Shown: positions 1,447-58,560 of the stretch, one piece after another
Numbering within the stretch: position 1 is the stretch's first letter
Layout of the letters: the number at the start of each line of letters is the position of its first letter
NCBI GenBank assembly: GCA_001972305.1
Contig: BDDD01002923.1
Span: 65,443 to 129,442, forward strand
Direction: 5' to 3'
Origin: Cephalotus follicularis
Taxonomy: Eukaryota; Streptophyta; Magnoliopsida; Oxalidales; Cephalotaceae
DNA: 64,000 bases
The notes under the pieces: generated by a model
Told to the model about the DNA's origin: nothing
What the model saw: only the letters and a program-made list of their open reading frames with translations
Databases searched by the model: none
Translations under genes and position numbers: made by a program

Positions 1447-1603
1447 TGTAATGCCCGGAATTTCCATCCAATGTATTATTGTAATTCTCAATGTAGTTTA
1501 TCTGGATTAATGAGAAAAGATGAATTTCTAAACTTATGATGTTGATTTTGGGGTAAAGCAATGTTAAAAGGTTGAATTGAAATTGAGTTGAGAAATTGGG
1601 CCA

Positions 1604-1733
1604 AAGCGTCGACGCCAAGGAGGGTAAACACGTGCGCTTAAGACATGACCCTAAGCGTCGACGCTAAGTGATAACGTCAACGCTCAGAAGCGAACGAGTT
1701 AAGCGTCGATGCCAATGGTTGGCGTCAACGCTT
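1604..1733. repeat. Type A palindrome cluster in LTR U3
   Basis: AAGCGTCGACGCC lies at 1604 and AAGCGTCGACGCT at 1653, followed by decayed copies (AACGTCAACGCT, AAGCGTCGATGCC, GGCGTCAACGCTT). It sits upstream of the purine-rich leader of this LTR. Confidence 0.8.
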
Positions 1734-2479
1734 AAAGGCGAATATCAGGCATGTTGAATCACTGACATAAAACGTGTTGAAGGGCAGGTATCCAGGCACT
1801 TTAACCTGTCAATGGAAACGTGTTGGACATGCTTGCATATCATAAGGCATGCGACGCCAGGAGGGAAGAAAAGAGAGGACACCTGTGTGCCATGCAGTGA
1901 GGGTAGGCAAGCGCCATGCATGTGCGGTAGATGAAGGAAGAAAGGGGGAGGAAATACACAACACCATAAATCGTGTCTTTCTTCTTCTCCTTCGTACGTT
2001 ACCTGGAAAGAAAGAAAAGAAGGGAAGAACAGAGAAAATCAGTGAAAGAATTTGTAGAGAGAATAGTGAGAAATCAGGAAAGAAAAGAGAGAGAGAACCT
2101 TAAACTTTCCATTGTTGGCCTGGTTTGAGCTTGGAAGCATTGGGAGCTTGGAGCCGAGCTTGGATTCGAAGTGACCAAACTAGACCTAGAAAATTGAAAA
2201 AGCTATTGTTCGGACAAAGAGAGGTGGAATTCCGGTTACTAACTTGGAATCAACAGGTAGAGATTATATACTTGCAAATTTGAGTTCAAAAATAGTGTTT
2301 GTTCATTCATGAAATGCATGAGTTTGTGGACTATGGATTGTTGCATGGTTGCTGCTATTTGTAAACTGGCCATGCATGTTGTATTCTGAGTGAATATCGA
2401 GCTAGATTGCATGTATGATTGTTGGATTCCATTGGTATAGTGTTGGAACGAAAAAGATGATGTTCTGGATTGTATAACC

Positions 2480-2900
2480 ATGGACGCTTACGATGGAAGC
2501 TTCGATGCTTTGACATGTTATGCGAAGAATGTATACTAGTTTAACCATAAATGTTGACGCCTATAGAACACGTGGACGCCCTGTTTCGAAAATGCGTACT
2601 GGTTGATGATAAACGTCGACGCCTAGAGAAAGCTTCGATGCCCTGTTCAGATAATGCGAAGATATGAATACGCGGACGTCGACGCCTGAGGTCCTACCTC
2701 AAAGCGTCGATGCCAAAGTGATAAGCGTCGACGCTCAAGGATCCTTACGTTGAAGCGTTGACACAGAAGACAATTGTTAACGCTTAGATTTCTGGTTAAA
2801 GCACTGACACTATGAAATTGAGCGTCGACACTTAGAGGACATAAGCGTCGATGGTTAGAGGACATAAGCATCAACACCTAGAAGATAAACGTTGATGCTT
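2480..2900. repeat. Type A palindrome cluster, about fifteen decayed copies
   Basis: Repeated variants of GCGTCGACGC fill this stretch, for example GCGTCGATGCC near 2704, GCGTCGACGCT near 2725, and GCGTCGACAC, GCGTCGATGG, GCATCAACAC and ACGTTGATGC starting at 2822, 2845, 2868 and 2889. Neighbouring copies are often 21-23 bp apart. It is a second cluster in the same LTR. Confidence 0.85.
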
Positions 2901-4084
2901 AAGCTACTGTTTTGGATGATTTCACCTGGATTGTGTACGTTGACCCCGAAATGACTATAGATGCATTTGAGCATATGTTTGCATTGCACTTTCCTATGGA
3001 TTGGATTATGGTATGGATTGAATTATGAACTGGATTGTTATTGCTTCTAAAATGTTTTACCATTTTAGGAAGTTGCATTCATGATTTATTATAAATCATC
3101 AATTTTACATAAAATGTTACTTTCAAAATTGGAATACATTTTCAAAGGATTGATACATATTTTGAATAAATATGTTGTGACAAGTATTTTATGACGCATA
3201 AACTACTTGAAAGAGGATAGTTATATATTTGAACAAATATATGTTTTTAAGTATTTATTTATATAAATTACTTGACTTGGATTGTGATTGGATTGTTGTC
3301 GGATTAGTCGTGGTGGTGTAGATGCCGCTGACACTAATGGCAGGGTTGGACTCTATGGGCCACGAGATGGCTGGAGGAACCCATGATGTTGGTTACTAGA
3401 CATAGTGCGAAGTAACATTGGATTGTGACCTGTTTCGAGTCGTCCGGAGACGGAACTGAAGTAAGGAGTTGGGTATCTGGGCTAGGAGATGGCGATGCCT
3501 TCGTGTATTGTTGGATTGTATGGTTTTAGCCACTTGGCATGGTTTCTCACCTATTGATAGATATACATATATAGATATATATGTATATATCGTTATATAC
3601 TATGTATTGCATCATGATGAATTCATTGCATGACATTCATTATCATTGACCCCAAATTTATTTATATCTTTCCTGCTTAGCCTGCAGTTTGGCTAACCCT
3701 ATCAAATTACAGATTGATGCGGTGGGATCGATATCGCTTGAGCGTGGGAAACCAAAGAGAAGATGGAATTATGTTTCCTTGAATAAATGTTAAATTGGAT
3801 AATGTATTGAGAGATGTTTAATTGGGTTTACTGTATGGACGAATTAATGTAATCGACTAAATATTGTTCTTGCTCCGTTTGAAGGAAATTAACAATGATG
3901 ATATTTTACTGTTGTAACATGTAGTATGAGATGCATGTTACGTGTTAATTCAGCATATGTTTAATGCTTCCGTAATTGTTTATATGATTGGAAAGTTTTA
4001 AATTTTCTCGAATAATTGTTAAGCTGAATATTTTATGTTAAATTGCCATGACCTAGGAGTTGTTATAGAAACGGGGTGTGACAG

Positions 4085-4616: not shown

Positions 4617-4999
4617 AAACGTCGACACTTAAGTCTTGGGCGTCGAGGCTTTGGGTTTTTGAGTTGACGCTTTGGTACATTGAAGCGCTAACCGTCGACT
4701 CAAATGTAGCGTTATTTGAGCAAACTTGAGTGTTAAGCGTCGACGCTTAACTTGTGAAGGCAGGAGGTGTTGACGCTTTTTTGGTTGCACGTTAACGTTT
4801 AAGCTACTGTTTGATGTGTGCAATCTTGGCATTGACGTCTTAATCATGGCGTTGACGCCAAAACATTTAATTCCTAGCACGTTGACGCCAAATGGATTGG
4901 TGTTGATAAAAATCATGAAACTGTAGAATTGTTCCAACTGAAGTGCAAAGCGTCGACGCTTTCTTTGAAACCATCAGCGCTTAATAGTTATGCATCGAC
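4617..4999. repeat. Type A palindrome cluster
   Basis: AAACGTCGACACTTAAG near 4617, AAGCGTCGACGCTTAA near 4736 and AAAGCGTCGACGCTTT at 4948-4963 are the best copies. GGCGTTGACGCC, GGCATTGACG and similar decayed forms lie between them. Confidence 0.8.
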
Positions 5000-5127
5000 A
5001 CTTAGCTCTGTTTTCTGTAGAATTTTGCCAATCTTCGATCTTTTGATCTCCAATTCGCACCACTTTGAGTAGAATTCATGCACTTTAATCTTCTTGGCTT
5101 TGTACCTGAAAATCATCACAACAGAAC

Positions 5128-6515: not shown

Positions 6516-7144
6516 TGTCACACACCGAATAGTGGAGAAACCCCCATGACCCGATGCGTGATATACCGTCCCTTCAATCTATGCAATCTCATATAAATCA
6601 TACTCCAAAAGTGCTATAAATATAGAACTTTAATCAACCGTGCTACATCAGCGGAATAATCAATTTCAATATATTCTAACTCTTATAATCTCCCAAAAAT
6701 CGGTCATGTAGTATCCATTTATCGGACCTATACCGCCTGTAAAATAAACCACAATTCATATGTTGGGCTTAGCCCTCAACAAACCACACTCCCATAGGAG
6801 GAAATCCATAAATATACAATACACATGTGGAGATAACCATTCAAATACCTCGAATGAAGAACTCATCCAAATCCAATACATCAACACACATATCTTAAGG
6901 ACTGCCACATGTTGGCAGGTCGATAACTGAAATAAAACATGTCTCTATATTGTCTCTTACAACTCATATATGTACAATCCATATACCTGACCTTAAGCAA
7001 GACCATATACAATATGGCTAACAAGATCTGCTATAGAAAACCCGTCCATCCCAGTCTATTTCACTGTAGTCCATCACTGGTGCCTAACTCATTCCATTAC
7101 AATGAAATGGTTCAGCGACATATAGTCGGGTAGGATATACTACA

Positions 7145-8120: not shown

Positions 8121-8335
8121 TTTGTAAAACCCTTTGAACGTTTATAAAACCCTTTTATTGAACTTTCTTTAAAGATTTACTTGAAAGTAAATTTTGGAGA
8201 CCAAAAGTGTTAAACAAGGATTTCCATAGGCTACAAGGCCTTAGGGAGGCTATCTATGGAATACATTTTAAAATAAAACAGTTTGGAATTGAAAATCATG
8301 TAAAACAGTAAAGTTTGGCTGAAACAGGGCGTTAG

Positions 8336-8447
8336 GCGTTGACGCTATTGCGCTAGGCATCGACGCTATTGCTAGGTGTCGACGCTGTTGCGCTAAGCGT
8401 TGACACTTAGTGCCTAAGTGTTGAAGCTTTATGCTAGGTGCCAACAC
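8336..8447. repeat. Phased type A palindrome array, six copies
   Basis: Copies start at 8336 (GCGTTGACGC), 8357 (GCATCGACGC), 8376 (GTGTCGACGC), 8397 (GCGTTGACAC), 8418 (GTGTTGAAGC) and 8438 (GTGCCAACAC). The spacings are 21, 19, 21, 21 and 20 bp, close to two helical turns. Each copy is a TCGA-cored palindrome or a decayed version. Confidence 0.85.
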
Positions 8448-8746
8448 ATGCCGTTTTAGAAAGATAAGGCATTGACGGTGTAATATCCCGTTTTTCCGTA
8501 TAGAATTTTTGGGCTTTTCGATTTGTTTCGTGTGGGCTGCCGATTCTTTTTCGGTTTGTGGACTGCCCATTTTTCGGTTTGTTTTGCTTTTGGCTAGGCT
8601 AAGCGGGTTTTGGCATTAGCCTAGTGGGTTTTGATATTAACTCTATGATTAAATAAAACAATTTTTGGCTTTTTATTTACTTGTTAAAAACCATTTTCAG
8701 CATTGTAAAAACAAAAGAAACCCTATTTTGCATTAAAAAAAAATTC

Positions 8747-8815
8747 TTGTTTCTCTCCCTCCCTCTCTCTTTCTTTCTCTCTCTCTCTCTCTCTCTCTCG
8801 TTCTCTCTCCCCTCG
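8747..8815. repeat. CT-rich microsatellite in LTR
   Basis: A long pyrimidine run with a (CT)n core lies just downstream of the AT-rich U3 of the solo LTR. It probably belongs to the CT-rich early transcribed leader seen in related LTRs. Confidence 0.85.
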
Positions 8816-9719
8816 CACCCTCTGTCACCGGCGACGCCATCGATATGGCACCGACGAAGGCACCGGTCGAACCGCCACAGCCTCCTGAGTCCACCGCACC
8901 CAACCCCTGCACCGGCCGACGTCTCCACCGGCGTGCGCAATGTCTTCTCTTCCCGGATCTGTTTGGCGTCGATTCTCCCACTCTGGTGAATGGCACGACA
9001 AGGCAATCACATATTCGGCATCCTGGCAAAGAGAGGAAGCGAGCCCGACCGGCCTCGACCCTTGACGACGCCAGAAAAGCAGGTCAAAGGCGTTCGTTCC
9101 AGCCAAACGCGGCGGTTTCATGGCAAACGTGCCCCAGATATGTCATCCCCGGCCTCAAATGGTCCAGATCGGCACTTTTTGGTGACTGACAAGCGACGCG
9201 TGACAGTCACGCGCCGGCCAGCGGCGGCACGTGAGCCCATGCCCCGGCGACCCTCCGGCGAGAAATTTTTTTGGACAGTTTCCGACTCCGCTCTTCGCAT
9301 TGGTGTGATCCGTTCCAGTTCCGCGATGTGATTATGGCTCTGTGATCTGTTTCGACTGCTTTTGATAAACTCTGAACCCTTTTCCGTTAAATTCTGTTTT
9401 CGGTTAAATTATGTATTTATGTAATCGTTTTACGATATTATGAGCTGAACTAGTATTATGATTCGAAATTGGATGAATTGGACAAATTGGACTTACCTTA
9501 GCGAATTCGAAAATATGTTTAGATGAGACTTCTGCGAATTGGACGTATTAAACCTATTGATGTCTTATATGGTCATGATTAGTGTATAATGACCCATGAG
9601 TTGATGTCTGATTTTATTTCATGTCCTTATGAGAACGATTTTATTTCTGTTATATATTTGCAACAACCGATGAGTGGTCTAGAGAAGTCTCGATACATAT
9701 TCTCGAGGTTGTTTTGGTG

Positions 9720-10430
9720 ATTGCATGAGGTACGGATTTCTATCGTTCCTTGGCTATCTGGTTATCAAACTAAAATCAGTTTTATTCTATGATCTCGTTT
9801 TATAGACTTGGTTATGTTTTATTGTACGGATTCTTTGTTCTTGGCTAACTCCTTCGGTTTTACTGAAATGAATTCAATTATATTTTTGTATGGATAACTC
9901 TTTCTTTGATACCCTCCTACTGGTTTGTTAATGAATAGATTTCAGCTTTATCATTCGTTATTGTACAGATTCTCTTTGCTTTGGATTTCTCAGTCGGTTT
10001 TGTTTAAATGAATTCGGTTTTATCTGAATTTAATCTGTTGTTAAAATGTACGGATTTTTTGCTCTTTGGCTATCTGTTTTATTGGAACTATCTCGTTTCA
10101 CTTTTATATTTTTGTACGGATGTTTCGTTCCTTGATATCTCATTCGGTATTGTTGGGATAAATTCGGTTTTGTTTTAGTATATGAAGTACGGATTTCCTT
10201 CTTTCTTTGATATCCTTCTGATTTTATTTGAGATAATTTCAGATTCTGTATTTGGTATGAATTCCCTTTCTTGGCTATCCTTCTGATTTTATTTAAGATA
10301 ACTTCAGATTCTGTATTTGGTATGGATCTCATTTCTTGGTTATCATCGATCGGTTTTTGATTGAATAAAACCCGTTTTATTGCCTAATGGATATGTACGG
10401 ATTTTTTGTTCCTTGGCTATCTGACATTCG
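9720..10430. repeat. Degenerate tandem repeat of TACGGATT...TTGGCTATC units
   Basis: The phrase TACGGATT(T/C)(T/C)TT...CTTGGCTATC recurs with CTGATTTTATTT or CGGTTTT...GAATTC, roughly every 50-110 bp. The two best copies, around 10200-10270 and 10265-10330, share CTTCTGATTTTATTT and TTCAGATTCTGTATTTGGTA. The inverse counterpart is the tandem region near 46375-46590 of the LTR at 42862. Confidence 0.65.
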
Positions 10431-13142
10431 AACTGAAACTGTTTTGCTATGCATCTTCGTTTATGAAATCAATGATGTTTCATGATTTTATTACGTTTCG
10501 AATTTAAAGTTGGTTTGACATTTTAATTTATTCCGACTTTATCGATACGATATGTTATGATACCGTTGTGAGCGGTTTTCGAATATGTTGTGTGAAAACA
10601 TATTTATGTGATTTAAATTGATAAATCAATAATTTTAAAATACTGAGTATTGTACCCACCTATGGGGCGTACCATAGGCACGTCGTGGGTCTAGCACGGG
10701 GACGTGACACTTCCGTAGCAGTGTGATTAGGCTACGGCGTCTCTGAGTGTATGAACAAATCCCATGAGGTGGATTTGTGGATCCGCTATGTGATAGAGGT
10801 GTATGAATCGGTTCTAGTTTATGATATGTGATCTAGTGAATGATCAAATATGTGATCAGATGGTTGATCTGATATATGATATGTGAGAATTGACTGTGTA
10901 GTGTCGTACACTTCAATTCTAGTGGGCATGTGGAATTAGCTACTCCCTTGCCAAATTTATGTTATGTGATATGTTATGTGGCTCAGTATGGAACTTATGT
11001 TTTGAAAGATTTGTCATACGTTTTGAAAGTTATGGATTTGGTTTTTATGAAAGTTCATATGTGTTTTCAAAGAATGTTTAAACTAATTTATTGCTTAAGA
11101 TTTCTGTTTTGAGTTAACTTTGAAATCTTACTGCTTTTAAATTATCGTTTATAGTTTACTTCTTTGTTTTGTTCCATAAACTGTATGTTTCGTACTGTTC
11201 ATAAACTGCTTTCTTTTGTTCCCTAAATTGTTCTATCCTGTTTCGTAGAGTGTTTCGTTTCGTGAAATGTTTTGTACCGTATCGTGTTTGTTTCAGATAC
11301 TGTATTGAGCATGATATTGTTTTGTTTCGGATACGGTTTCGTTTTGGTAAACTGCTTTGTTTAGGATACAGTTTTGCTTCGTTCTGTTATGATTCGTAAT
11401 TGATCTGTTATGATTCGTAACTGTTCTATTTTGTTTCGTAACCGTTCTGTTTTGATTCGTATCTGTTTTGATTCGTATTTATGTTGTTTCGTAATTGATT
11501 TGTTTCATAAACTATTCGTAAACTGTTTTATGACTCTATATCTGTACTGAGGTTTGCTCAGCCGCGTTTTTTGTTTTCCATGCGGCAGGTTTTCAGGGAC
11601 AGCATGGGCAAGTGTGATGAGAGAGTTACCCTATGTCAGAGGATCATCTAGGAGTTTGATCCGGTTATGTTCTTAGTAGTGTTATGGTCGTGTATAGGCC
11701 AGTTATCTAGACAGTATTGTGATTTTTGATTTATGACAGTTTTCAGATTATGTTTCAGATTTAGTTTATGTTTCATGATTATACATGTTTCAGATTTTTT
11801 TAGAACCACCACGTATTGATGATGATTAAGATTAAGATCTTTGATATGTTTTTAGTTCAGTTTTGTGTGACACACCGATCCCGAATCGGGAGTGATCCCG
11901 GTTCTGAATCGGGGGTGTTACAGACGGTCTCACACAAGGCATCAATAGTTTTGGCAACGATTGCAGTTCGTCAACAGTTGCAAAAATCAGGTTGAAATCC
12001 ATTCCAAGTTTGTTTACATTTCGGCTCAAAGGAAAACATAATCTCCAAACATAAATTGGAACTCAAAACAAGTTTTAAACCATTGAAATCCATTTTATAT
12101 CCATCGAATTGAGAGAAGGAAGAACTGGGTAAGGAGTCCCAATTCTCCAACTTCTCTAAATTCTTTGTTTAGTCCATTATACCCATACACAGTTCCTTAA
12201 GCCATGAAATCATCAATCATGCATAACCGTAACAATCCATTTAGCACACAATCATCAATTAACAACCATATTAGTCCATACAATCCATTTAAAATGCATG
12301 AATGCAAGCAAGATAGTATAAAATACCTGTTAATAATTGAGCTTGAAAACCTCCTATCCTTGGCCACTTTCTTCACATTGCATATACCATACATTTTCGT
12401 TACACCCTACACACAAGAATCACACACTATCGCCACTAGAGCTCCGGCCAAATTCCTGCCAACACACGGGAGTTCCGACCAGGCCATAAACATCCCTCAA
12501 ATTAGACGATCGACACATCACCGCTAGAGATCCGCCGTGACTCGCTGCAGAACGGGCGATCACTGTTGACAGTGAATCCAACTCACTGAGTTGACTCGCT
12601 GGACTTCAACAACTCTGGCTTCTTCACAAAAAATGTCACAAACCTTCAGTTCCATGCGTCTTTGCCCAAGACTCACCGAGATTTGGCATTGGTACATGTC
12701 GCCGGATCTCTGGCCAGGTCACTCGAGCTCCGGCTATGCCATAACTGGCCTAAAAAACCTTCAATCAACCCGTTCGTAACCAAAACACGTCGTGACTCGA
12801 CGCCAAAGGTTGTGTCACTGGCGGCAATGAGCCAAGGTGACTAAGTTGACTTGGGAACGAGCCAAGGAAACTAAGTCTGGCAGAAAAATGCCTTAACTAT
12901 CATCAGAATGGGTAAAGCTTATCCTTAAGACAAAGACCGGCTCCACCCACGTTGATATCGACGTCAAAAAATGCTCGGCCTAGATGACAGTGATGGCAAA
13001 GTGTCAGGGAGAAGGAAAAGAGAAGAGAAGAAGAAGGGCGTTACCGTCAGTAGTGGAGGCTTCAAGTCACCCATTTCTTTCTCCGATCACCGGCACTTAG
13101 AATCTGTCTCCTCCGATGCTCTCTCCCTCTCGCATTTCAGTT

Positions 13143-13210: not shown

Positions 13211-13478
13211 GCTTAGGCACTAATCGTCAATGTTTTTTTGTTAAAGCGTCGATGCTTTCCTAAGCACCAGGGTTTTAGCGCTGAAGACTTTGTTGAGCGT
13301 TAATGGTTTGTTGTAAACTGTCGACGCTTAGGCATTACGCGTCAACGATTTTGGTTAAAGTATCGATGCTTGCCTAAGAGCTGAAGGAAATGTTGAGCGT
13401 TAATGGTTTGTTGTAAACTACTGACGTTTAGGCACTAAGCATCGACGCTTTTGCCAAAGGCGTCGATGCTTAGACAAT
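13211..13478. repeat. Copia leader: type A palindromes in a higher-order tandem repeat
   Basis: Copies of CTTAGGCA start at 13212, 13327 and 13427, marking units of about 115 and 100 bp. Each unit carries type A palindromes (AAAGCGTCGATGCTTT, TGTCGACGCTTAGG, AAGCATCGACGCTTTTG), and the first two carry TTGAGCGTTAATGGTTTG. The same pattern occurs at 6479-6515 on the other side of the nested LTR, so the cluster predates that insertion and belongs to the copia leader or something older. Confidence 0.75.
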
Positions 13479-15039: not shown

Positions 15040-17016
15040 TGTAACGCCCCCGATCCAAGATCACTTTATACTCAAAGTGAGCTACGAGGATTTGTGCGAT
15101 ACGTGGGGTGTGTAACCTTTATCCATTTTAACAATATAACTTATCAATACATTCTCATAATCTTAAATATGTCTTACAATGTTCAACACTAAATTCTAAA
15201 CATCATAAACCATATCGTCTACGTTTATATATATATATCATCTGTCATAATACATTTCACAGCGGAAAACATTAACATATTACATCAAAAGTATTTTATA
15301 CCAAACATCATTGCATACCATAATTCCTTTCCAAAACTTCTTTTATGAGCTCCATCAAAAGCTCGAATTTCCATGTTCAACCATTTCCTAGAAAATTTTA
15401 GTTGAAAACAAAAACATTGAAAATAGTGAGCATCAAAATAGCTCAGTAAAAATTATCGTAATACAACATCATTAAAATTTATTTTCTTGTATATTTTTAT
15501 AAAAAAAAATTAGTACATTTCACATTCATTCCTTTTTTGATCATATCTCATGAATCAACACATTTCATAAATAACTGAGGGATTTTTCTAAACTTAAATA
15601 ACCCAATTGAACCATGCTTCACTGGGGCCTTGTGCACTCCCCGATTACTATACTTACATCATATGCATGTCCGCGAGTACTCTCCGCTCCATTATCCCTC
15701 TTTGGATCGCAATGCAAGAGCTGTTCATCTCAATTCATTACCTTTTTACATTTCGCAAATTCATTTCTTAATACTTTGAGTGATCAGCTCAATGTATTCA
15801 TAAAACAGAATTGTCAAATATTTCAAAAACTGATTTTTCGTATAGAAACATTAATCTTCTGAGAAAAACTAAAACAGTAAAGTTAAAGTACACATTTCAA
15901 CGAATTCGGGATCATAAAATTCACAAAATTAGCTGGAGAAACGAGGTTGCAATGAATTTTTAAAGCTGCAGGATCCATATGATAGCAGAATATGAGCAGT
16001 AATTTTAAACATAGATTTTCGTCAAGATATCGATAGAAATTCGTAAAACATGCTGCATAACAGTTGTAGACGACATTTTTAGGTTTCCAAAACATTCAAC
16101 CATGCGTATTTTCATCAAGAAACAAAAGAGTTATGAATAAAACAATCTACTGCATGATTCCAAAAAATAACAGAACATTTGATACTTTAGAAAAATTGAG
16201 TAGGAATCCTTACTTTCAATCAATCTCCTTCTCTTCCTCACTTAGCTAAATCATCCTATCATATCTCAGTAGAAAACAACATCTTCTTAGGTTAAAACTG
16301 CATATATATATATAAGGAGAGAGACTTTGGATGCAAGCATGTGAGTCACCATGCTAGTTGCCCATGTGACTAAATTCTCCACCTACAAATTGATGACACT
16401 TGTCCCATATCATCATTCTACTCATGACGCATGGCTGAAATATCTAATTCCTTCACACCCTAGCTTGACATGTGTTAATTAATTAATATAATTAACTCAC
16501 AAAAAAGAGAAAAAGCTAGATATTGTAACTTATATGTAGTCCAAAGCGCTGGCGCTTTGAATTACAGCGTCGCCGCTTTACGGGTTTTCGTCAAAGGTCA
16601 AAATACATTGGTTCTTAATGTGTCATCGTTCGTATTGAAAGCGTTGACGATTGACATTAAAGCGCTGACGCTTTATACCAAGCATTGTCGGTTTGAAGGT
16701 TTTGCCTAAGATGAAAACGCACTGGTATTAACTGGCGTTGGAAGGGTACAAAGCGTCATTGGTTTGCCACCAAAGCGTCGACGCATATGTGGAGCCATCA
16801 GCGTTTAAACAAGTTTGTCTTGGAAATTCAGTCGACGTTTAATGTTAACCATTGGCGCTTTATACCACTGTGTCGACGCTTTATACCTTTGTAGTCCACG
16901 ATTTCAACATAATACATGATACCAAACACAAAACAACATGCACCATAATAAACACGACATAAAGCAAACATATTTCCATAAACAATATCTTCAACGAAAA
17001 AATTCCAGTCATTACA
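15040..17016 (-). mobile_element. 3' LTR of the Ty3 element (1977 bp)
   Basis: Read forward it starts TGTAACGCCCCCGATCC and ends ...CCAGTCATTACA, matching 22158-24067 along its length. A TATA run near 16300-16315, with a purine-rich leader beside it, marks the likely minus-strand promoter. A type A palindrome cluster lies upstream of that promoter. Confidence 0.92.
16543..16885. repeat. Type A-like palindrome cluster in U3
   Basis: AAAGCGCTGGCGCTTT and AGCGTCGCCGCTTT lie 21 bp apart (core starts 16546 and 16567). Further copies follow: AAAGCGTTGACG, AAAGCGCTGACGCTTT and AAAGCGTCGACGC. The outer half-sites AAAGCG/CGCTTT are kept while the four central bases vary (CTGG, TCGC, CTGA, TCGA). Confidence 0.8.
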
Positions 17017-22157: not shown

Positions 22158-24067
22158 TGTAACGCCCCTAATCCGAGATCACTTTATATATAAAACGAGC
22201 TACGAGGATCCGGTGTGTTACGTGGGGTGTGTAACTTTAACCATTTTAACAATATTACTTATCAATAAATTCTCAGAATCTTAAATATGTCTTACAACAT
22301 TCAACACTAAATTCTAAACATCATAAACCATAACATTCATCTCTATACGTCTACATCTATATATATAAATCATCTCTCATAATACATTTCACAGCGAAAA
22401 ATATTAACTTATTACTTCAAAAGCAGTTTATACCAAACATCATTGCATAACATAATTTTGTTTCGAAACATCTTTTATGAGATTCCTCAAATGCTCGATC
22501 TTCCATGTTCAACCATTTCCTAGAAAATTTTAGCTGAAAACAACAACATTGAAAGGAGTGAGCATCAAAATAGCACAGTAAGAATTATCGTAATACAACA
22601 TCATTAAAATTCATTTTTGGGTATATTTTTATTAAAAAAAACTTGCACATTTCACATTCATTCCTTTTCTGATCATATCTCATGAATAAGAACATTTCAT
22701 AAATAACTAAGGGGTTTTTATAAACTTAAATGACCCAATTGAACCATGCTTCACCGGGGCCTTGTGCACTCCCCGATTACTATCTTTACATCGCATGTAT
22801 GTCCGTGAGCACTCTCTGCTCCATTATCCCTCTTTGGATCACATTCCAAGAGTTGTTCATCTCAGTTCATTATCTTTTTACATTTCGCAAATTCATTTCT
22901 TAATACCTTGAGTGATCAGCTCAAAGTATTCACAAAACAACATTGTCAAATATTTCTAAAACTGATTTTTAATATAGAAACATTAATTTTCTGAAAAAAC
23001 TTCAAATATTAAAGTTAAAGTAGACATTTAAACGAAGTTACAATGATATGAGCAGTAATTTTAAACATAGATTTTCGTCAATAAATCAACAAAAATTCAT
23101 AACACATGCAATATAACAGTTGTAGACGTCATTCTATGGTTTTCAAAACATTCAACAATTCGAATTTTCATCAAGAAACGATAGAGTTATGAATAAAATA
23201 ATCTGCTGCATATATCTAGAAAATAACAGAATATTTTATACTTTAGAAAATTTGAGTAGGAATCCTTACTTGATTCAATTTCCTTCTCTCCCTCACTTAG
23301 CTGAACTATCCTATCCAATCTCAGCATAAAACAACCTCTTCTCAGTTTAAAACTACACATATAAATATAAAGAGATAGACTTGGGATGCAAGCATGTGAG
23401 TTACCATGCTAGTTGCCCATGTGACTAAATTCTCCACCTACAAATTGATGACACTTGTCCCATATCATCGTTCTACTCATGACACATGGCTGAAATATCT
23501 AATTTGTTCACTCCCTAGCTTGACATGTGTTAATTAATTAATATAATTAAGTCACAAAAAGACAAAAAGCTAGATATTGCAACTGATCTGCAGCCCGAAG
23601 CGTCGGTGCTTTGAATTAGAGCGTCGCCACTTTACTGGTTTTCGTCAAAGGTCAAAATAAATTGGATCTTAAAGCATCGTCGTTTGTATTGAAAGCGTTG
23701 GCGGTTCACATTAAAGCGCTGACGCTTTATACCAAGCAGCATCGGTTTTAAGGTTTTGCCAAAGATGAAAACGCACTGGTTTTAACCAGCGTTGGAAGGG
23801 GACAAAGCATCATTGGTTTGCCACCAAAGCGCCACCGCTTATGTGGAACCGTCGCGCTTAAACTAGTTAGTCTTGGAAATTCAGTTGACGTTTAATGTTA
23901 ACCGCTGGCGCTTTATACCACTCTTTCAACACTTTATACCTTTGTAGTCGACCCTTTCAACATAATACATGATACCAAACACAAAACAACATGCACCACA
24001 ATACACAAGACTTAAAGCAAACATATTTCGATAAACAATATTCAACAAAAAAATTCTAGTCATTACA
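22158..24067 (-). mobile_element. 5' LTR of the Ty3 element (1910 bp)
   Basis: Read forward it starts TGTAACGCCCCTAATCC and ends ...CTAGTCATTACA. It is collinear with 15040-17016, with scattered differences and small length changes. Confidence 0.92.
23597..23938. repeat. Type A-like palindrome cluster, partner of 16543-16885
   Basis: Examples are AAGCGTCGGTGCTTT, AGCGTCGCCACTTT, AAAGCGCTGACGCTTT and AAAGCGCCACCGCTTA. Comparing site by site with the other LTR, many differences are C/T or G/A at CpG positions. Confidence 0.8.
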
Positions 24068-30930: not shown

Positions 30931-31465
30931 TCCGGTGTGGTGTCCCTAGCCATCTCCTGGCCCCTAGAGCACAACCTGCCATTAGCGTAAGTGACAACCT
31001 CCATCACCGCACTAACAGCGTAACAATCACAATCAATCGAACAATTCAATCATTGATGCTAACCGGTCCCGAGCTAGGAAAGCACACAGCTAACCGTCCC
31101 GTGGTGCTAGGAAAGCTCAATCAATCCAAAAATCAATCCTTTCCAAGTAATTCATAAGTTATAAAATACTTGAAATAATACATTTATTCAAAATGTAAAC
31201 AGTCTTTGAAATCACGTTTCAATCCTTCGAAAATATACATTTAACAAATATACATTTTCGTGTAAAATAATGATTTGTTATAAAATCATGTAGGCACTTC
31301 TAAAATGATAAAACACTTTAGAATTCAATCACATTTCAATTCACAATTCAGTTCACAGTTCAATTCATACCGACATCGACGCTAACTGGCACAAGGCAAG
31401 GAAAGCTCAACCAACCCACAATAATATGCAAGCAAACATATGCTCAAAATGCAACCGACCCTTTC

Positions 31466-31835
31466 GGCGTCGACACCTAACTTCTAGGTGCCAAATCGTT
31501 CATATTAGTCACTTAAGCGTCGCCGTTTAACCCTAGGCGTCAACGCTTATACCCTTTAAGCGTCGGCGCTTTAACCAGTAACTTAAGTGTCAACAATTGT
31601 CCTTGACGTCGACGCTTCAAGGTCAGGATCCTTGAGCGTCAGCGTTCATTGCTTTGGCGTCGACACTTTGAGGTAGGACTTCAAGCATCAACATCGACGT
31701 GTCCATCACTACGCATATTCAAACCAGGGCGTCAACACTTTCCTTAAGCATCGACGTTTATCGCGAAGCTAGTGTACACACCTATGCGTGACGGTCCATA
31801 GCGTCGACGCTTATCGTTTAAGCATCAACGGTTAG
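31466..31835. repeat. Type A palindrome cluster in solo LTR
   Basis: GGCGTCGACACCTAA, AAGCGTCGCCGTTTAA, AAGCGTCGGCGCTTTAA, GACGTCGACGCTTCAA and AGCGTCGACGCTTATCG are the clearest copies, with decayed ones between them. Confidence 0.8.
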
Positions 31836-42690: not shown

Positions 42691-44298
42691 TTTTCCCTTT
42701 TTTTCTCCCCATATATAACTTCTCTTTATATAGCAATCAGACATCTAGTAGGATAATTCACAGCCATGTAGCATTTAAATATCCCACTAATGTCCAATTA
42801 ATACATACTAGTAAAACAACTAGATTTACCACCAATTGACATGTGTCCAACACATATCACTTGTAACACCCATATACGGTTGGGAGTGCTTACAGGACAT
42901 ATAAATCTTATCAAAGCATAAACCAATCTTTATTCAAATAACATGGTGGTTTCAAAAATCTGAAAACATATATAAAATCCTTAACATAAATTCCAAAACC
43001 AAAATACTTTTCATAACACTGGTCAACATATGATCATAAAACAACTATTATTCATTTGACAAGAGCAGACTCCTAGGTGATCCTCTGACATAGGGTATGT
43101 CACACCCCGTTTTTCACAATAACAACATATATATGGTTATCAGGTAATAATCCAGTATTAATAAAATCCAAAAAAATTAAAACCTTGCGGAAGCATTCGA
43201 TATACTGGATTAATTTATAAATATCCGCACGCAGCCCATACTACATGCTTACAAGTACAAAAAAGTTATATGTTACATATCTGAATTGTATATACAACAT
43301 AACGGAGTATGATGATTATTACAAAACTCACATAACATTTAAACAACAACCTCAAATACAACCAAACCTCTGAGTATAGCTTCAGCAACACACCTCCAAT
43401 CTCCTCGTCAATCTGTAACTATAGGTGTTAGTCGTTGTCCTCACTTGGCTAAGTAGGAGTTATGCATGAATATGAATATACATATGTAATCATGCATGAC
43501 AGTTTATCATTTTAAACATTATATATGTGTATGTCAATATATAAGAATCCATGCCAAAAGGCTACAATCAATCACTTATCACGAATACCACATAAGGGTA
43601 TAGTCAATAACCACACTGGGTGGGTGTCATCTAGGGCTACCTCCTAGCCCAACCGATGCACCACCTAACTACCACCATGCGCTCCGACGATGATAGAAAA
43701 TGTAAACACTACTTCCGGCACATGGCGGGAAGTTAACACTCACGATCTGCATTGCAGATAAATTGGGTGAATAAGCTAGAGCCAACTCCTGGCACATTCG
43801 CTCACCATCGTAGTCTCGTGATACACTTCGATCACTAAACCATCGGCTTCACTTCAATAACAATCATTTCATAGATATTACATATATATGATGTAATATA
43901 ATAATTCTCTTTGGAAAACAATAAAGCAATATAATTTTCTTCAGGGCATAAACACTACCCTTTCAATCACTTTCCATATTTTGGAAAAACACTTTGAACA
44001 ATAGTATTTATATAAAATACTTTGATAGAGATATGATATCTATAACAGTAGCAATATCAGTAGCAATTAACAATACAATTGCATAACAAGAGATCATGGC
44101 AATTCATTGATCATAATGGCCAACACACTCAATATCAACTTATACAAGTTACAACATAAGGCTATAAGTTGTTCAAACTTTGTATTATAATTACACATAG
44201 CAGGGGTTGATTATTTCAATCATCCCTAATGCAAGCTAGTGCAATTTACATGTAATTCAGCCTAAATAGTACATTTTAGTGGCAGAATATCACTTAAT

Positions 44299-44455
44299 AG
44301 TTGACTGTTTCCACTAACACTCGACTGTTTCATTACAAAGTCGAATGTTCCTCAAGAATAGCCGACTGGATACATTCAGTAGTCGACAGTTTGTCCTTAA
44401 CAGTCGGCTGTTTACATTGAGTAGTCGACTGTTATTCTCAACAGTCGACTGTTTT
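44299..44455. repeat. Phased type B palindrome array (ACAGTCGACTGT), eight copies
   Basis: Right half-sites (GACTG or close) start at 44303, 44323, 44343, 44364, 44385, 44406, 44427 and 44447. The spacings are 20, 20, 21, 21, 21, 21 and 20 bp. The best copy is ACAGTCGACTGT at 44441-44452. All are centred on TCGA or one-base variants. Confidence 0.88.
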
Positions 44456-46376: not shown

Positions 46377-46590
46377 GATAACCAAGAATGAGATATCCGT
46401 ATTAAAAGTAAAACTGAATTCATTTCAATAAAACTGAATTCATTTCAATAAAACTGAATTCATTTCAATAAAACTGAAGGAAAAAAAATCCAAGAAAGAA
46501 GATAACCAAGAATGAGATATCCGTATTAAAAGTAAAACTGAATTCATTTCAATAAAACTGAAGGAAAAAAAATCCAAGAGCGAAGAATCC
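46377..46590. repeat. 20-bp tandem repeat inside a larger duplicated block
   Basis: AAACTGAATTCATTTCAATA is repeated at 46411, 46431 and 46451 with a partial fourth copy. The larger block GATAACCAAGAATGAGATAT...ATCCAAGA occurs at about 46377-46496 and again at 46501-46579. It corresponds to the inverse tandem region at 9720-10430. Confidence 0.9.
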
Positions 46591-46863: not shown

Positions 46864-47012
46864 AAGCGTCGACGCTCAAAAAAAGCGTGGACGGTTAAGA
46901 CACAAGCGTCGATAGAAAATGAAAACAGTTGACGCTTTAACACATGCAGGACGATTAAAACAGCTTTTCTATGCACATGCATTGACACATAGGGTATAGG
47001 CGTCGCTGCTTT
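46864..47012. repeat. Phased type A palindrome array
   Basis: Sites start at 46866 (GCGTCGACGC), 46885 (GCGTGGACGG), 46906 (GCGTCGATAG), 46926 (CAGTTGACGC) and 46946 (GCAGGACGAT). The spacings are 19, 21, 20 and 20 bp. It lies in the LTR at 42862-50023. Confidence 0.8.
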
Positions 47013-47852
47013 AGGTCGAAAACATGAAAACGCAGTGTTATATCAGTTGCAACTGTAACACCCCACGCCCGCAGGGCAGACACGTGGCATTATTCTCAAT
47101 CCAAATCACAATACAGTGGTTGGGACTAGCAATATAAAAATGTGGAAAACAAGTCTTCAGTCCTTCAGTCCGCTGCTACTTGCTGCCCTACCTATGCCGC
47201 GCACAAAAGTACAATGCAAGCCCACCCCGACGGATGGGGTTAGCCACACTGGCTAAGCAGAAACCTCATGCAGCATGTATGCATGTACAATGTGCAATAT
47301 CAATGTGCTGTGTACAATATCAATGCATGACATGGCAAATGCAAGTGTACAGTTTGCGATCAGACTACCCGTATGACAATGGCCCATAATAGAGCATACG
47401 GATAGGATCTATAACAGTCAATCAATAGCAGACACTCAATGCTGGTGTATAAAACACCCAATCAATCAATAAATATCCTATAGAGCATGCGACCCCGGGT
47501 CAATACAATGTCAATCAGTTAGCAGTGATCAATCCCACGGAAGGTAATCCTTCAAAAAGGGTGGGAGATCTATCTATGTTTCTCAGACTGATCAGGTCCG
47601 AAACACATAGATCTTCCAGCGTATGGCTGGGCCAATACAATCTTGATGAGCTACACCAAAGGAGCTACTGTTACTGTTAGGGAGCTACGGCCCTCAAGGA
47701 GCGTCAATTGTCAATCAATCATGCTCGTTTGCAATACAATACAATCAAAGCAACAATACAATAAATGAAACGATTGACGGAATAGGTGGACAGAGTCAAC
47801 AACCTAACCTGCCGACACAAATTATAAGATCGCTCTATAGGATACATACAAT

Positions 47853-48119
47853 TCAATCAATCATGTCAATACAATGTCAAGTAAAGTTAATAAGTGGTGT
47901 TGTCTAATGGAGAAATGGGAACGTGCATCCATCGTACCGACTTAGACTCACAACAACACTTATGACTCAAGCAATCGATCAATCTATCAATACAACGTTG
48001 AAGCAAAGTCAATAAGTCGTGGTGCCTAATGGAGGGATGGGAATGTGCGTCCATCGTACCGACTTAGACTCACAACAACAGTTATGATGCAAGCAATCAA
48101 TCAATGTGTCAATACAATC
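47853..48119. repeat. 122-bp tandem repeat, two units plus a partial
   Basis: Units start at 47853, 47975 and 48097 with TCAATC-like text. Each full unit contains AATAAGT, CTAATGGAG, CCATCGTACCGACTTAGACT and CACAACAACA. The offset is exactly 122 bp. Confidence 0.85.
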
Positions 48120-48233
48120 ATTAAAGCCGTTTGCAAACACTTGAACACCTCAAGTGAGGCTCTAGTCAAGTGACAATGTGAAAAGAAGTTGAAAACCAGC
48201 TTTAAAGTAGCTAAAAACTCCTTTCAGTCCATC

Positions 48234-48560
48234 AAGCGTCGATGTCCTTGGCGAAAGACGTCGACGCATCATTAAAATGGTGGAAAGACATCGATGTCTT
48301 TCTCTATTTGTATAGAGATATGGCCGAAAGGCGTCGATGTCTTTGATGAAAGATGTCGACGCGTTTCAATAAAAGTAGCCTGGGAATGCGCATCGATGTT
48401 CAGCATCGATGTCTTTCTTGGGGAGAAGACATCTGGAGGCAAAGACGTCGATGTCTCTCAAAGGTGTTGATGTCTTTACTGTAGAATCAAGGATATGGCA
48501 TTATAAAGCGAAAGACATCGATGTCCATGGGCTGGGGTCAATGTCTTTGCTGGGTAGGGT
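48234..48560. repeat. Type C palindrome cluster with A-C hybrid copies
   Basis: Pure type C is AAAGACATCGATGTCTTT (48284-48301). Hybrids are AAGCGTCGATGTCCTT (48234), AAAGACGTCGACGCATC (48254), AAAGGCGTCGATGTCTTT and AAAGATGTCGACGCGTTT (near 48325-48366). About twelve copies have a TCGA or near-TCGA core. Confidence 0.88.
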
Positions 48561-49810
48561 CGATTTTTTTGTAGAAAACCAGCCAATCTCAAGTCAAAAT
48601 CCAATTTAAAGCCATTCTTTGAAAACTAAGCATTAAAATCAATCATTTAAGGTTTGTAAAACTTGTTACAACTTTCAAATTTCAGTTTCAATCTTCCTAG
48701 ATTGGTTAGATCAAGGAAATCAATAAAAAAAACCCTAGTTTTTCAATTCGACACAATACAATCATTCATGCAATTCAATCAATCACACAATTAAACAATA
48801 GGCAATTCAAGTAGGGAAGTCCTACCTTTAACGAAGCTTCAAAAGTTGAGCTTCCAATCAACAATCGGCGAAAATCACCCAATAACCCGCTACATTCTTG
48901 TTCAATCGGCAAGCCGCAACTTGCAATCGCTATCCTCGTTGATGGAGATGCAATTCCAGTTGCAAGATGGAGATGGAGGCTACCAGCAAGAGAGAGAGAA
49001 TGAGAAGGATAGAGAGAGGGAGAAGAATGAAAGAATGAGAGAATGAGAGTGAGAAATTGACTTATATGGTCAATTCGACCAACTCTCCGAAACTCAACCC
49101 AAAATCCTGACTATTCATGCATATAACCAATACACTAACAATAGGTATAGGAATACCTCAATTCCATACAATGGAATACGGTCTGATACAGTACAATACG
49201 GTACAATTTATGCATGAACAGTATAAAAGGGAATTCGGGTCATCTCAATCACCATGAATAAAATTCAGTTTTCTTAAACATAAATCCTAATATGGTAATA
49301 TATAGGTTCTAAATCATGACTTCTACATTTGAAAAATACCAGTATAACATTTCAAATGCATAAACATGTAGATTACAGGTTGAACATGGCAAAGGAAACT
49401 TTTCAAAACATGGTTTCTCAAACTCCGTGATTAGAACAGTTTTCATGGATTAACAACATAGTTTTGATCAATCTAATAGCTTAATATTCATCAAGAACAG
49501 CAACATATGACAATAACATAACCATTATCATGACATACCTCAAGATGATGAGAAAACAATGATGAAAATGGTGCAAGAAAATGGCTGCCTCTGCTGGTTT
49601 GAAAAACAATACAGGAATGGTGTTTTAAAAGGATGGAAATCATGAGTTTAATGATGGTAAAAACGTGTTTTTGGATTAAAGCTTTCCTTATACGCAGATA
49701 ACGCGTCCAACACAGATAGAAAAACAAATAACCGGATTATAGAAAGAATCCCACCTTCCTAATAAAGCTACTGGTCACACCGACCATGAACAAATAAGGA
49801 AAAATGGCTA

Positions 49811-49893
49811 AAGCGTCGACGGTCATGCAAAAGCATCAATGCTTAACCGTTTTAGTACAAAAGCGTCGACGTTATAACAAGGCGTCGACGCTT
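49811..49893. repeat. Type A palindrome group
   Basis: AAAGCGTCGACGGTC, AAAGCATCAATGCTTAA, AAAGCGTCGACGTT and AAGGCGTCGACGCTTAA are present. This is the second cluster of the LTR at 42862-50023, close to its U3 end in minus sense. Confidence 0.8.
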
Positions 49894-52663
49894 AACACCT
49901 AGAACATAAAATTAAAGAGTTTATCGAAATGAAATCAAACCGTCCAACTGTACATAACATATAGCATACGACAAAAAGTAACATACAACAATAAACACAT
50001 AGGCAACGAAACGGGATATTACATCACTCTTCGATAATCAGGCAGAACTTGAATGTCCGAATCAAAATCGGCAACGTCCTTAAATTACCATAGCGCCCTC
50101 GAACTTAGGTAAAGTTGCCGAAAATAGTCCTTGACTATTTTAAGACACTGAAATCATGTCCAACATATTCCAGGCGTGTAAATTAATCCCAGATTAATTT
50201 CCCAGAATTTAAGCCCGTCTCTGATTCACCCGGTACTTTTTCATGTCGACTGTTACCATGTACTATAATCCCTCGTAATCTCGGCTCGTCCACGGCCTAG
50301 GGTAAGGATACGTGTCAACCCTAGTTTTTACTGGCGCTTATACATCCGTAAACTCATTACGACTATCGTCGGACCATTCCTGAAACCCCATTTCATGTCC
50401 CTATAACCTGCACAGGTATTTTCAGTCCGTAATGCATACATAGAGCATAAAGCCTATCACCCTCGATACAAGTGTGACGATCCCATCTTGCGTACTGGCC
50501 TACATTCATGCAGATTCGGTAAGACTGAAAAATACCCTATTTCCAGCCCCGTGAAAGGGCGGAGATCAAAGTAAAACTTCCTCCACATGACATAGAGGAG
50601 CAAGTCAGGTCTAAGGATCAGACAAGTCCTCTCAGGTCCTGCTAGACACTAAGTGCCTATACACTACCGCCACAGATAGGAATTGCTACTGACACGGGAT
50701 TAGCTATCATCGAAATAGCATTCCTATTGTGGGTCAACTTCAGTGTACATGCTCACATCACGCACCCCACATTAGCTCTAGGGTTCCCCCTGAGTGGCAA
50801 TGAGATACTCCACCCTCCAACTCCTGGGAGTGAGCATAACGTGACAAGTCTATCCGGTTCATTTATACCCCATATAAATGAACCTACGACTGGGAACAGT
50901 TTAGTCATAGGGAATAAGGTAGTCATCCTCATAGCCCCGGGCCCAACATCCAACCCTTGATGTGACTGGGCACCATATGTGTAAGCAGATGAAATGCTTC
51001 GATGTTGTGATAAAACACATACGGCTTGCATATCATAAATAAAGTATGCACATATGTCACATAAGTAATGTGAGACTATTTTAACCAAGAGACAATAACA
51101 GCTACACCCAGCTACTCAGTGGCTTGATGGGTCACCATCTCTAACAAGATGCATGTGTTATTTTCATAATGATGTGAATTTGTGTGTAGCCGTGTGCCTT
51201 AATGCAAGATGCCCCAAATATCTCTTACATATTATTCTCTAAACCAATGAGAATCAAGCAACATGCACATACCCATTTCTCTCACTTGATGGTCGGCCAA
51301 GGAAACTTGTGGAGGAAGCTTTAGATTGCTTAGTCATTAAGTAAGTTGACTTGTCAGCTAACTAAGAACATTAGCTTCCAACTAGACAAAGTCACTAAGT
51401 ACTTATTCAGTTTTGACTCCATTTGGGCCAGCCCAATCCATGCATTCCCAATGCTAGGGGTTGGACCAAATGTATTCTCTCTTGATAAAATTAGAATATT
51501 TCATATTTCACCAAAAAACCCCTTGGCCCATAATGATCTATTTATTGTGTTACTTGATCCCACTTGCTTAGAATTGAATAAAGTCTAAGAAAATGGATAT
51601 TCTCAGGCCAAGTATCACCTCACAGGTGTTATCCTCTCACTAAATGTCATGTGTCACACACACGACAACATGTTCCAAAAAAAGAAGGGACCCGAAATCT
51701 TGGTTGGACCTTAGGAGGACTATAAGTTTCCTAGATTATCGCAAGAGTTCTAGCACGACCACTCCAATAGTCCCCAACTATTCGAATGACACTGGTATGA
51801 TTCCCAATAATCCCCCAGATCCACGGAATCAACTACGTCTATAAGTCAACATCCAGTAAACTAGTACTTTAATCCAGTTATCAGCATATGTGTCATGTAT
51901 CCTACGTCATTCTTGGCTCTGAACGAGAGCTAGGATTCAGAATGATGTCACCCTTAGGTAAAGCAGCGATAACTATAAATCCATGCATGCACCGAGACTA
52001 TTGGCAGACCTCCCCGAAAATCCCATTTCAAGTATGCCTATACCTGATCAAGGTTTTGAGTCTACAAAATAATATAGAGCTGATCACCCTCTTTGCGGGT
52101 GTGACGATTCCTTATTGCGCACTTGCCCATGCATCTCAATGAAGCTCACAAAAGGAATAAAGAAAGACCTTTTTGCAAGCACGTGGCTAGTTCTGGGGAA
52201 GGCAAAAATCAAAGCCAAGCAGTTACAACACAATCCATACCAGCCGCTTAGGTCAAAGGATACAACGTAGCCCATGAATGGTCTACTAGTCACCATAGAC
52301 TATAGACTGTCGAGACTATAGGAATCCTATTTATATAGGTATGGCTTTCCAAATTGGTTTCCTATGCTGGTCTGTTCAGTCACATGCTTTCTAGCACGAC
52401 CCCGCATCAGTTTTACAGTGAACCGAAATGGCAACGCGATGATCCATCTCCCACACAAAGTGGGACAAGCATAATATAGCAAGTCTTTATGGTTCATCAA
52501 TTTCCCTAAGAAAGTGAACCTATGACTTGGAACGTTCTGTCATAAGGGAGTAAGGATCACATTCTCATAACCTCCCAGGCATGAGATCCAACCATTTTAA
52601 CGACAGGGCACTATACGTGTATTCAGTCAATGTTAATCAAATGATTCATTGAGGATGGGATGG

Positions 52664-55903: not shown

Positions 55904-55922
55904 TCACCCCCCATAAAAAGAA
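55904..55922 (-). other. Polypurine tract of the Ty3 array element
   Basis: The minus strand reads CTTTTTATGGGGGGTGA immediately before the LTR (inverse of 55904-55920). A similar inverse tract follows the LTR copies at 61320 and 62196. Confidence 0.65.
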
Positions 55923-55956
55923 GATTTCGTCCCGAAATCACAAACACAAACATACC

Positions 55957-56530
55957 TCAAACAAACAAGTGAGGATAACGCTCCCGAATATGCTCCTCAA
56001 GCTCCCAAGTAGCCTCACGTTCGGGATGATTCCTCCACAGCACCTTCACAAAAGAAACGGTCTTGCTTCGTGTCACCCGTTCCTGTCGATCCAGAATAGC
56101 CTCAGCCTCCTCGTCACAAGATAGATCCTCAAGAATACTGTCCAATGGATAGTAAACCACATGCAGAGGATGATACTGATAACCCCTCAACAAATATACG
56201 TGGAACACATTATGGACATGTGCTAACTGCGGAGGCAAAGCTAACCGATAAGTGACCGCGCCGATCTTTTCCAGAACTTCAAAAGGTCCGATAAACCGGG
56301 GACTCAACTTTCCTTTCAGCCCAAAACGTCGGACTCCCTTCCAAGGTGAAACTTTCAAGAACACATGTTCACCCACCTTGAACTCCAAATCCCTCCGATG
56401 TCTGTCCGCATAACTCTTCTATCGAGATTGAGCCACTTTCAATCTCTCCCTTGCTATTGCCACTTTCTCCGTAGTGATCTACACTAGCTCAGGTCCCTCG
56501 ATAACTCGTTCTCCAACTTCATCCCAACAT
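55957..56530 (-). pseudogene. Ty3 integrase C-terminus and chromodomain (fossil)
   Basis: Minus-strand text reads GEHVFLKVSPWKGVRRFGLKG, RFIGPFEVLEKIGAVTYRLA and HNVFHVYLLRGYQ. A chromodomain (VKVLWRNHPEREATWELEEH) follows, ending YPHLFV. Chromodomains are known to steer chromovirus integration toward particular chromatin. The integrase core is not visible in this copy. Confidence 0.9.
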
Positions 56531-56531
56531 G

Positions 56532-57115
56532 TCAGAGCATGACACTTTCTCCCATACAGAGCTTCAAACGGAGCCATATCACACCATGCTTATCCACACG
56601 GAACTCTGATTGATTACCCTTTTCAACATTCTGGACTAAGGCCCAAAGCATACCATCATCGCTCTGAGCTGTCTTAATCCGAGATATAAGAGTAGGCTCA
56701 ACATTCATTGCAGCAATACAACCATCAGAACCCCGAACATACAGATGCAAATCCATCCGCTCCATATCAGCTATCAACTGCGGCTGAGTAAACAAAGCCG
56801 CTACACTCCCATAACTCTTCCGACTTAGAGCATCAGCTACCACATTTGCTTCACCAGGATGGTACTGAATGTTCAAATCATAGTCCTTCATAAGTTCTAA
56901 CCACCTTCTCTGACACATATTAAACTCTTTCTGCTCAAAAGATATACTTGAGACTCTTATGATCCGTAAAGACGTCACAAGTTTCTCCATACAAGTAGTG
57001 TCTCCAAATCTTCAACGCAAACACTACCGCTGCCAACTCGAGATCATGTGTAGGATAGTTTACTTCATATGGCTTCAACTGTCTCGAGGCATAAGCTATC
57101 ACATGACCGTGCTCG
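56532..57115 (-). pseudogene. Ty3 RNase H portion (fossil)
   Basis: [20 protein letters not shown]-type text lies near 57040-57110, then KSLKYIF-like text, [20 protein letters not shown] and [14 protein letters not shown], the end of Ty3 RNase H. The region continues with the linker toward the integrase ([23 protein letters not shown]). Confidence 0.88.
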
Positions 57116-58411: not shown

Positions 58412-58560
58412 GTACGAAAAGGCGCTTAAACATAAAACATCACAAGGAACAAAACAGAAAGTAGAAAACATATCAGAAAATCAAAACCGAAATAACCTAA
58501 CCCGGTGTCTACCCAATCTCATAGGTCTAACCTAGTTAGGTCTTCTAAGGAAACCAAAAC

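Follow-up and report, generated by a model that had tools for sequence, protein, structure and literature searches.

Positions 8336-8447 of a 64,000-nucleotide stretch of Cephalotus follicularis DNA (the whole stretch analyzed, hereafter the window) contain palindromes set about two helical turns apart, and the question raised by this locus is whether such palindromes form an array of protein-binding sites, remain from tandem duplication or give rise to small RNAs. The first-pass annotation had described six sites here, and their starts (8336, 8357, 8376, 8397, 8418, and 8438) were confirmed, with spacings of 21, 19, 21, 21, and 20 bp. All are A-type sites, related to GCGTCGACGC (longer A-type consensus, AAGCGTCGACGCTT). 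In order, they read GCGTTGACGC, GCATCGACGC, GTGTCGACGC, GCGTTGACAC, GTGTTGAAGC, and GTGCCAACAC, with 1, 1, 1, 2, 3, and 4 mismatches to GCGTCGACGC, respectively. None of the six is a perfect palindrome, two of the six keep the TCGA centre, and the last two sites match poorly. At 8469-8478, 31 bp beyond the sixth, there is one more site, a decayed seventh (GCATTGACGG) into which a solo LTR cuts.

The solo LTR (8479-11922, plus strand) is a 3.44-kb, high-copy sequence that starts with TGTAATATCCC, ends with GGGGTGTTACA and has GACGG on both flanks, one copy of this target-site duplication being at 8474-8478. It was inserted into the array and is not part of it. A genome search with positions 8200-8700 gave 5,727 candidates, of which 40 were scored, one being the window itself; all 39 other scored copies start at query base 271-282 (approximately 8470-8481) and exclude the array. 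Relatives of the array, together with an LTR-end-like motif at 6516-6526, suggest that the array is a piece of an older LTR that has been interrupted. The Ty3 LTR location originally proposed is thereby modified: the array adjoins the high-copy LTR that begins at 8479, lies outside it and probably was part of the older one. Locus L006 has two stretches related to the solo LTR, about 5.8 kb apart.

Stretches homologous to the array, with similar left flanks, were detected in loci L041, L043, L026, and L042. The TRF program reported a 21-bp unit in the array, with 3.7 copies and 77% matches (8329-8404). The first spacer (TATTGC.CTA.) occurs once in L026 and L042 and about three times in the window, showing that a 21-bp unit was duplicated in tandem here, which accounts for part of the growth of the array. 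The diverged spacers described in the first-pass annotation are a property of many other arrays, while the spacers of the first units of this array are similar, and spacers approaching the palindromes in similarity, which would point to recent duplication, were found in part of it (8329-8404) and not generally. The first six spacings were 21, 21, 21, 29, 19, and 26 bp in L043 and 21, 21, 20, 29, 19, and 25 bp in L041 (sites with four or fewer mismatches counted), and the spacers of these two homologous arrays differ while the spacing is nearly the same.

The window is densely packed with nested Ty3 elements, with matches to Tf2-1-like SH3, reverse transcriptase, protease, gag, and chromodomain sequences. 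Fourteen of its 15 long open reading frames were compared with Pfam, and nine had hits (gag, protease, reverse transcriptase, RNase H, SH3, chromodomain, a copia-like piece, and one weak hit) and five had none. Within this setting, A-type sites recur in many places. A putative 3' LTR (1447-4083, plus strand), recognized by terminal motifs and the purine tract GAAGGAGGGAGGAT just upstream, contains two array zones, 1606-1731 (about 160-280 bp from the LTR start) and 2499-2898 (about 1.05-1.45 kb from it). The array at 4619-5001 is homologous to arrays in L027 and L028, and sites at 13246-13469 include two pairs 21 bp apart. Element A carries an array in its 3' LTR (array, 16567-16879; LTR, 15040-17016, minus strand), about 140-450 bp from the LTR start, and another in its 5' LTR (array, 23600-23725; LTR, 22158-24067, minus strand). 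The array at 31373-31810, which is homologous to that at 2499-2898 and to L014, lies in a putative LTR whose 3' end on the minus strand is at 29971.

Arrays with other arms were also detected. A B-type array at 44298-44451 consists of eight AACAGTCGACTGTT-like sites spaced 20, 20, 21, 21, 21, 21, and 20 bp apart. Another (YAGTCGACTG) at 54545-54750 lies about 1.15-1.36 kb into an LTR of a chromodomain element (53166-55903, minus strand) and has ten sites in two runs, with spacings of 21, 21, and 21 bp and of 22, 21, 21, 21, and 20 bp; the same array is present at 59963-60168 in the other LTR (58583-61319, minus strand). A putative LTR at 47054-50023 (minus strand), recognized by terminal motifs only, contains a C-type array (AAGACRTCGAYGTCTT-like) at 48236-48526 and A-type sites at 49813-49891, about 140-210 bp from its start. 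The array that had been listed at 46866-46946 with spacings of 19, 21, 20, and 20 bp was recovered at 46866-46935 as four sites with the first three of these spacings; the weaker fifth site next to them fell below the threshold used. The region at 53166-63406 comprises two chromodomain Ty3 copies in partial tandem, with LTRs at 53166-55903 and 58583-61319, and includes an 876-bp duplication (60551-61426 and 61427-62302) that is 99.7% identical. A perfect 20-bp tandem repeat of TAAAACTGAATTCATTTCAA (46409-46478, 3.5 copies) has no TCGA palindrome.

Measured from the start of LTRs in which it was recognized, the sites occupy positions of about 140-450 bp and then of about 1.0-1.9 kb, a two-zone placement based on the LTRs at window position 1447, L030:570, and L014:2971, element A having only the first zone. 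The LTR at L014:2971 has single sites at 438 and 708. By eye, a splice-donor-like sequence (GTAGG or GTAGAG) was noted about 240-305 bp before the second zone in three putative LTRs, at about 2257 (plus strand), 32115 (minus strand), and 48825 (minus strand), which suggests a possible intron in the LTR.

The palindrome-array pattern is found throughout the genome of the source plant. The window contains 10 exact GCGTCGACGC sites, 36 with at most one mismatch and 72 with at most two; 20 Markov sequences gave on average 0, 0.2, and 5.6, respectively. The changes in the 72 window sites are mostly C to T or G to A. In the source assembly (1,577,397,061 bases, 9,746 contigs), GCGTCGACGC occurs exactly 73,186 times and its reversed control 10-mer 121 times. 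Twenty 10-kb stretches picked by contig number (200 kb in total, 23 kb of it N) contained 140 sites with at most two mismatches, compared with 18, 22, and 33 for three control 10-mers.

The two-turn spacing of these sites is firmly established. Among the 54 consecutive spacings in window clusters of three or more sites, 18 were 19-21 bp, compared with 3.31 expected and a maximum of 12 in 2000 placements. Exact GCGTCGACGC pairs 10-40 bp apart (gaps of 0-30) numbered 4,236 genome-wide vs. 7 for the control, and pairs with gaps of 21-51, a range that overlaps the former, numbered 3,796 vs. 4. The first 50 of the 4,236 pairs, which are the first places listed and not a random draw, had spacings of 19 (4 pairs), 20 (13), 21 (22), 22 (2), 23 (2), and 25 bp (2), with one pair each at 29, 31, 32, 33, and 40 bp; 43 were thus at 19-23 bp and none below 19 bp. 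These 50 pairs had 44 distinct spacers, and 19 different inner 5-mers were found among the 22 pairs spaced 21 bp apart. Loose single-linkage clustering (edit distance of 3 or less) merged 32 of 37 short spacers into one group, which we read as a reflection of shared AT-rich ends, as 11-mers with such ends join easily. In the twenty 10-kb stretches, 90 consecutive spacings did not exceed 125 bp, and 36 of them were 19-22 bp. In L025, the A-type array at 1598-1697 repeats an off-phase 25-bp step (spacer TTTGTCTAATGATAC) adjoining 20-bp steps, and this 25-bp step recurs among the exact pairs with gaps of 21-51.

The sharp 20-21 bp peak proposed earlier as a check for TCGA-centred sites was present. 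In the window plus 22 loci, TCGA-to-TCGA distances peaked at 21 bp (39 pairs) and again at 42 bp (20 pairs), the bins from 25 to 60 bp averaging 5.39, and the exact pairs listed from the genome peaked at 21 and then at 20 bp. Ten other 4-mers showed no 21-bp peak in the same sequences, and ACGT was mildly raised at 19-22 bp (6-8 vs. 2.67).

Helical phasing at longer range is suggestive. For TCGA distances above 25 bp, with copies kept in, the raw spectrum had a 10.25-bp power of 2.97 vs. a 99.9th percentile of 2.45. When similar spacers were dropped, spacings of 26-125 bp showed a 10.5-bp periodicity (R of 0.33, p of 4.8e-5, n of 94), and other thresholds and A-type sites alone gave R values of 0.23-0.27 (p of 1.4e-5 to 2.4e-3), these p values being uncorrected for the nine or ten periods looked at. 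At spacings of 26-70 bp, the signal was weaker and periods of 11-12 bp fit equally well or better than 10.5 bp. Exact pairs 31-54 bp apart showed no clear helical phasing and were dominated by spacings of 45 and 50 bp; after strict de-duplication with a loose similarity threshold, nine of 50 were left (p of 0.19). The proposal that the sites are bound on one face of the helix is favored by the two-turn peak and by the modest periodicity beyond 25 bp, a periodicity that the exact pairs lack.

Arrays with different arms (CAGTCGACTG and AAGACRTCGAYGTCTT) share the TCGA centre and a spacing of 20-22 bp. Palindromes of 14 bp centred on TCGA, with no more than one pair broken, number 28 in the window, compared with 1.8 in local Markov sequences; AT-rich cores were raised as well (ATAT, 26 vs. 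10.6; TATA, 18 vs. 6.4). Thirty-nine chains of three or more sites were detected (22 A-type, 14 B-type, and 3 C-type); two loci figure under A as well as under C, and one element contributes each of its two LTRs separately. Their spacings were mainly 21 bp (62), followed by 20 (25), 22 (14), 19 (9), and 23 bp (6). Six control consensuses gave 0, 12, 0, 1, 2, and 0 chains, and those with 12 and 2 share a GTCGAC core. Flank similarity placed 31 arrays in five groups, with different arms present within one group, although groups built by single linkage may be joined through nested elements. Recurrent sites with conserved spacing and unrelated spacers are the general picture, with some similarity kept among A-type spacers: adjacent A-type spacers were more alike than background (0.189 vs. 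-0.073), and adjacent B-type spacers did not resemble each other more than spacers taken from different arrays did (0.121 and 0.128).

Conservation of the sites differed between close and older relatives. In two close pairs, the two LTRs of element A and two close copies, the sites were less identical than the rest (78 vs. 89% and 79 vs. 90%), and a third pair had 92 vs. 91%. Between older relatives, identity was higher in the sites (70-83 vs. 53-74% in family F1 and 68 vs. 63-65% in F2). Since the sites have no protection in close pairs, selection can be inferred only between older relatives. When sites were defined in a single member of each pair, their identity exceeded that of the remaining sequence in 14 of 14 directions of seven homologous pairs. 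The single tests are weak (fraction of rotated masks at or above the observed value, 0.007-0.28), some sequences recur among the pairs, which are therefore not independent, and the alignments may be anchored on the sites. An eighth pair (L037 and L038), arbitrary and non-homologous (sites, 0.40 and 0.35; rest, 0.42), was dropped afterwards; had it been kept, the tally would be 14 of 16. Insertions and deletions were rare in the LTRs (26 gap events vs. 427 substitutions in three pairs), so the spacing could partly persist by inertia.

Within sites, transitions exceeded transversions in most pairs. Summed over three pairs, changed CpG positions made up 13 of 108 in the sites vs. 82 of 423 elsewhere in the LTRs; one pair had slightly more CpG change in the sites (3 of 20 vs. 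18 of 157). Sense-strand decay in 101 sites of seven LTR pieces summed to 58 C to T and 59 G to A changes, with single pieces leaning either way (e.g., 14 and 5, or 8 and 14). In both the CpG and the strand counts, the LTR ends used for element A are a few bases short of the listed coordinates. The W-box is TTGAC, and there was no sign that it was created by deamination of these sites, the central CpG having changed in 15 cases and the flanking ones in 12 and 24.

We consider it probable (about 0.6), from the sequence features, that these are cis-regulatory arrays in Ty3 LTRs in which each palindrome would be a dimer site and the two-turn spacing would allow packing on one face. A dimeric protein, supplied in trans, would bind the DNA at each TCGA-centred palindrome of 10-16 bp, and dimers bound at neighboring sites about 21 bp apart would pack, possibly cooperatively, on one face of the DNA. 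The first zone, about 140-450 bp from the LTR start, would be upstream of the likely promoter and the second, about 1.0-1.9 kb in, downstream of the splice-donor-like sequence; an effect on transcription is predicted. Units would be added by local tandem duplication; selection on active elements would then hold the sites and their spacing while the spacers drift, and dead copies would lose sites chiefly by CpG decay. What was observed directly are the sites with their spacing and arm types, how they are conserved in a few relatives, and where they lie in a few LTRs. The arms differ between arrays (GCG, CA, and AGACR), suggesting that specificity diverged while centre and spacing stayed constant. 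More speculatively, and in our estimate doubtfully, the TCGA centre and two-turn spacing could serve as an unchanging scaffold, with the arms acting as an address for each family that a fast-evolving protein reads; the Ty3 families would then have diverged by array-wide switching of arms with the geometry kept. The arm-reading protein may then be a host repressor or a VANC-like anti-silencing factor from some element.

Passive minisatellites, in which a 21-bp unit multiplies within LTRs through slippage or unequal exchange and leaves palindromes and spacing as functionless relics, would account for the TRF unit and the multiplied first spacer of the array at 8336-8447, for the likeness of adjacent A-type spacers, for the rarity of insertions and deletions, and for the lack of site protection in close copies. 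Such an origin does not explain why neighboring B-type spacers are at background similarity, why the first 50 listed pairs have 44 different spacers and none closer than 19 bp, why sites outlast spacers between older relatives despite three CpGs per site, or why three arm types have centre and spacing in common, and we regard it as improbable, albeit worth keeping in mind. A simple 21-bp minisatellite, with spacers as alike as sites, was not found for B-type arrays and was found in part at 8329-8404. Palindromes that form cruciforms or hairpins, or that attract methylation as a silencing signal, would be CpG-rich, as these are, and would be consistent with the excess of transitions; however, site CpGs change no more in sum than other CpGs of the LTRs, which speaks against a methylation magnet, and such palindromes have no need of a two-turn spacing. 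We therefore consider a structural or methylation role distinctly unlikely.

A function at the RNA level, through hairpins of neighboring palindromes or phased 21-nt small RNAs, seems very unlikely. The spacing is close to 21 and some pairs are near-perfect inverted repeats (L012:7854), but the spacing jitters from 19 to 23 bp, C to T and G to A changes on the sense strand are equal in sum, and 82 pairs of adjacent sites gave about equal within-site, inner, outer, and direct similarity (0.57, 0.57, 0.57, and 0.59-0.61). Neither strand-biased (G.U-tolerant) decay nor inverted symmetry at the level of pairs was seen, and the small-RNA source suggested in the first-pass annotation is not upheld. 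A hairpin between neighboring sites, hinted at by a few asymmetric pairs, was likewise rejected on the 82 pairs and the strand symmetry. No Rfam match at the gathering threshold was present within the window. Strand-symmetric decay, equal direct and inverted similarity, and ordinary CpG change together make protein binding at the DNA level the best reading.

Should the arrays indeed bind protein, then sites numbering in the tens of thousands, with a known geometry and spread through the genome, would mark the recruitment of a host factor by Ty3 elements or their recognition by it, and the different arm types would allow co-evolution of the factor and the LTRs to be tested. The genome would then hold a large reservoir of phased binding sites.

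No report of such arrays was found in the consulted portion of the literature on LTR palindromes, U3 tandem repeats, chromovirus LTRs, and palindromic motifs, in which the only plant match to AGCGTCGACGCT was a Taxus MYC coding sequence. One candidate precedent was set aside, as the part consulted concerns palindromes at insertion sites, a different matter (PMC6911290).

The nearest parallel in logic is the VANC system of Arabidopsis VANDAL elements, and we do not claim that the arrays belong to it. VANDALs are Mutator-type DNA transposons that encode VANC. Motifs for this sequence-specific protein build up in VANDALs as tandem repeats that change rapidly; the repeats occupy noncoding sequence, both upstream and in introns, and related elements have different motifs (PMC5735166, PMC10398659). 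The VANC motif is given as YAGTATTAY, and the main text of that article, as consulted, has no word starting with "spac" or "palindrom" (PMC5735166). Arrays of short noncoding motifs are common to both cases, bound by a protein in VANDAL and predicted to be so here, and those described here may likewise differ between related elements, whereas YAGTATTAY is not a TCGA palindrome and the arrays described here are in Ty3 LTRs rather than in DNA transposons. Plant LTR elements such as Tnt1 and Tto1 have repeated short enhancer motifs in U3, ahead of the LTR promoter; each such set is confined to a single Ty1/copia family and is not known to consist of phased palindromes. Short cis-elements repeated ahead of an LTR promoter are a feature in common with Tnt1 and Tto1, but the arrays here are phased palindromes found in many of the LTR families of this genome. 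Generic LTR minisatellites resemble some arrays, including that at 8336-8447, in their tandem units of about 21 bp, but many of the arrays described here repeat the sites and their spacing only, and not the spacers.
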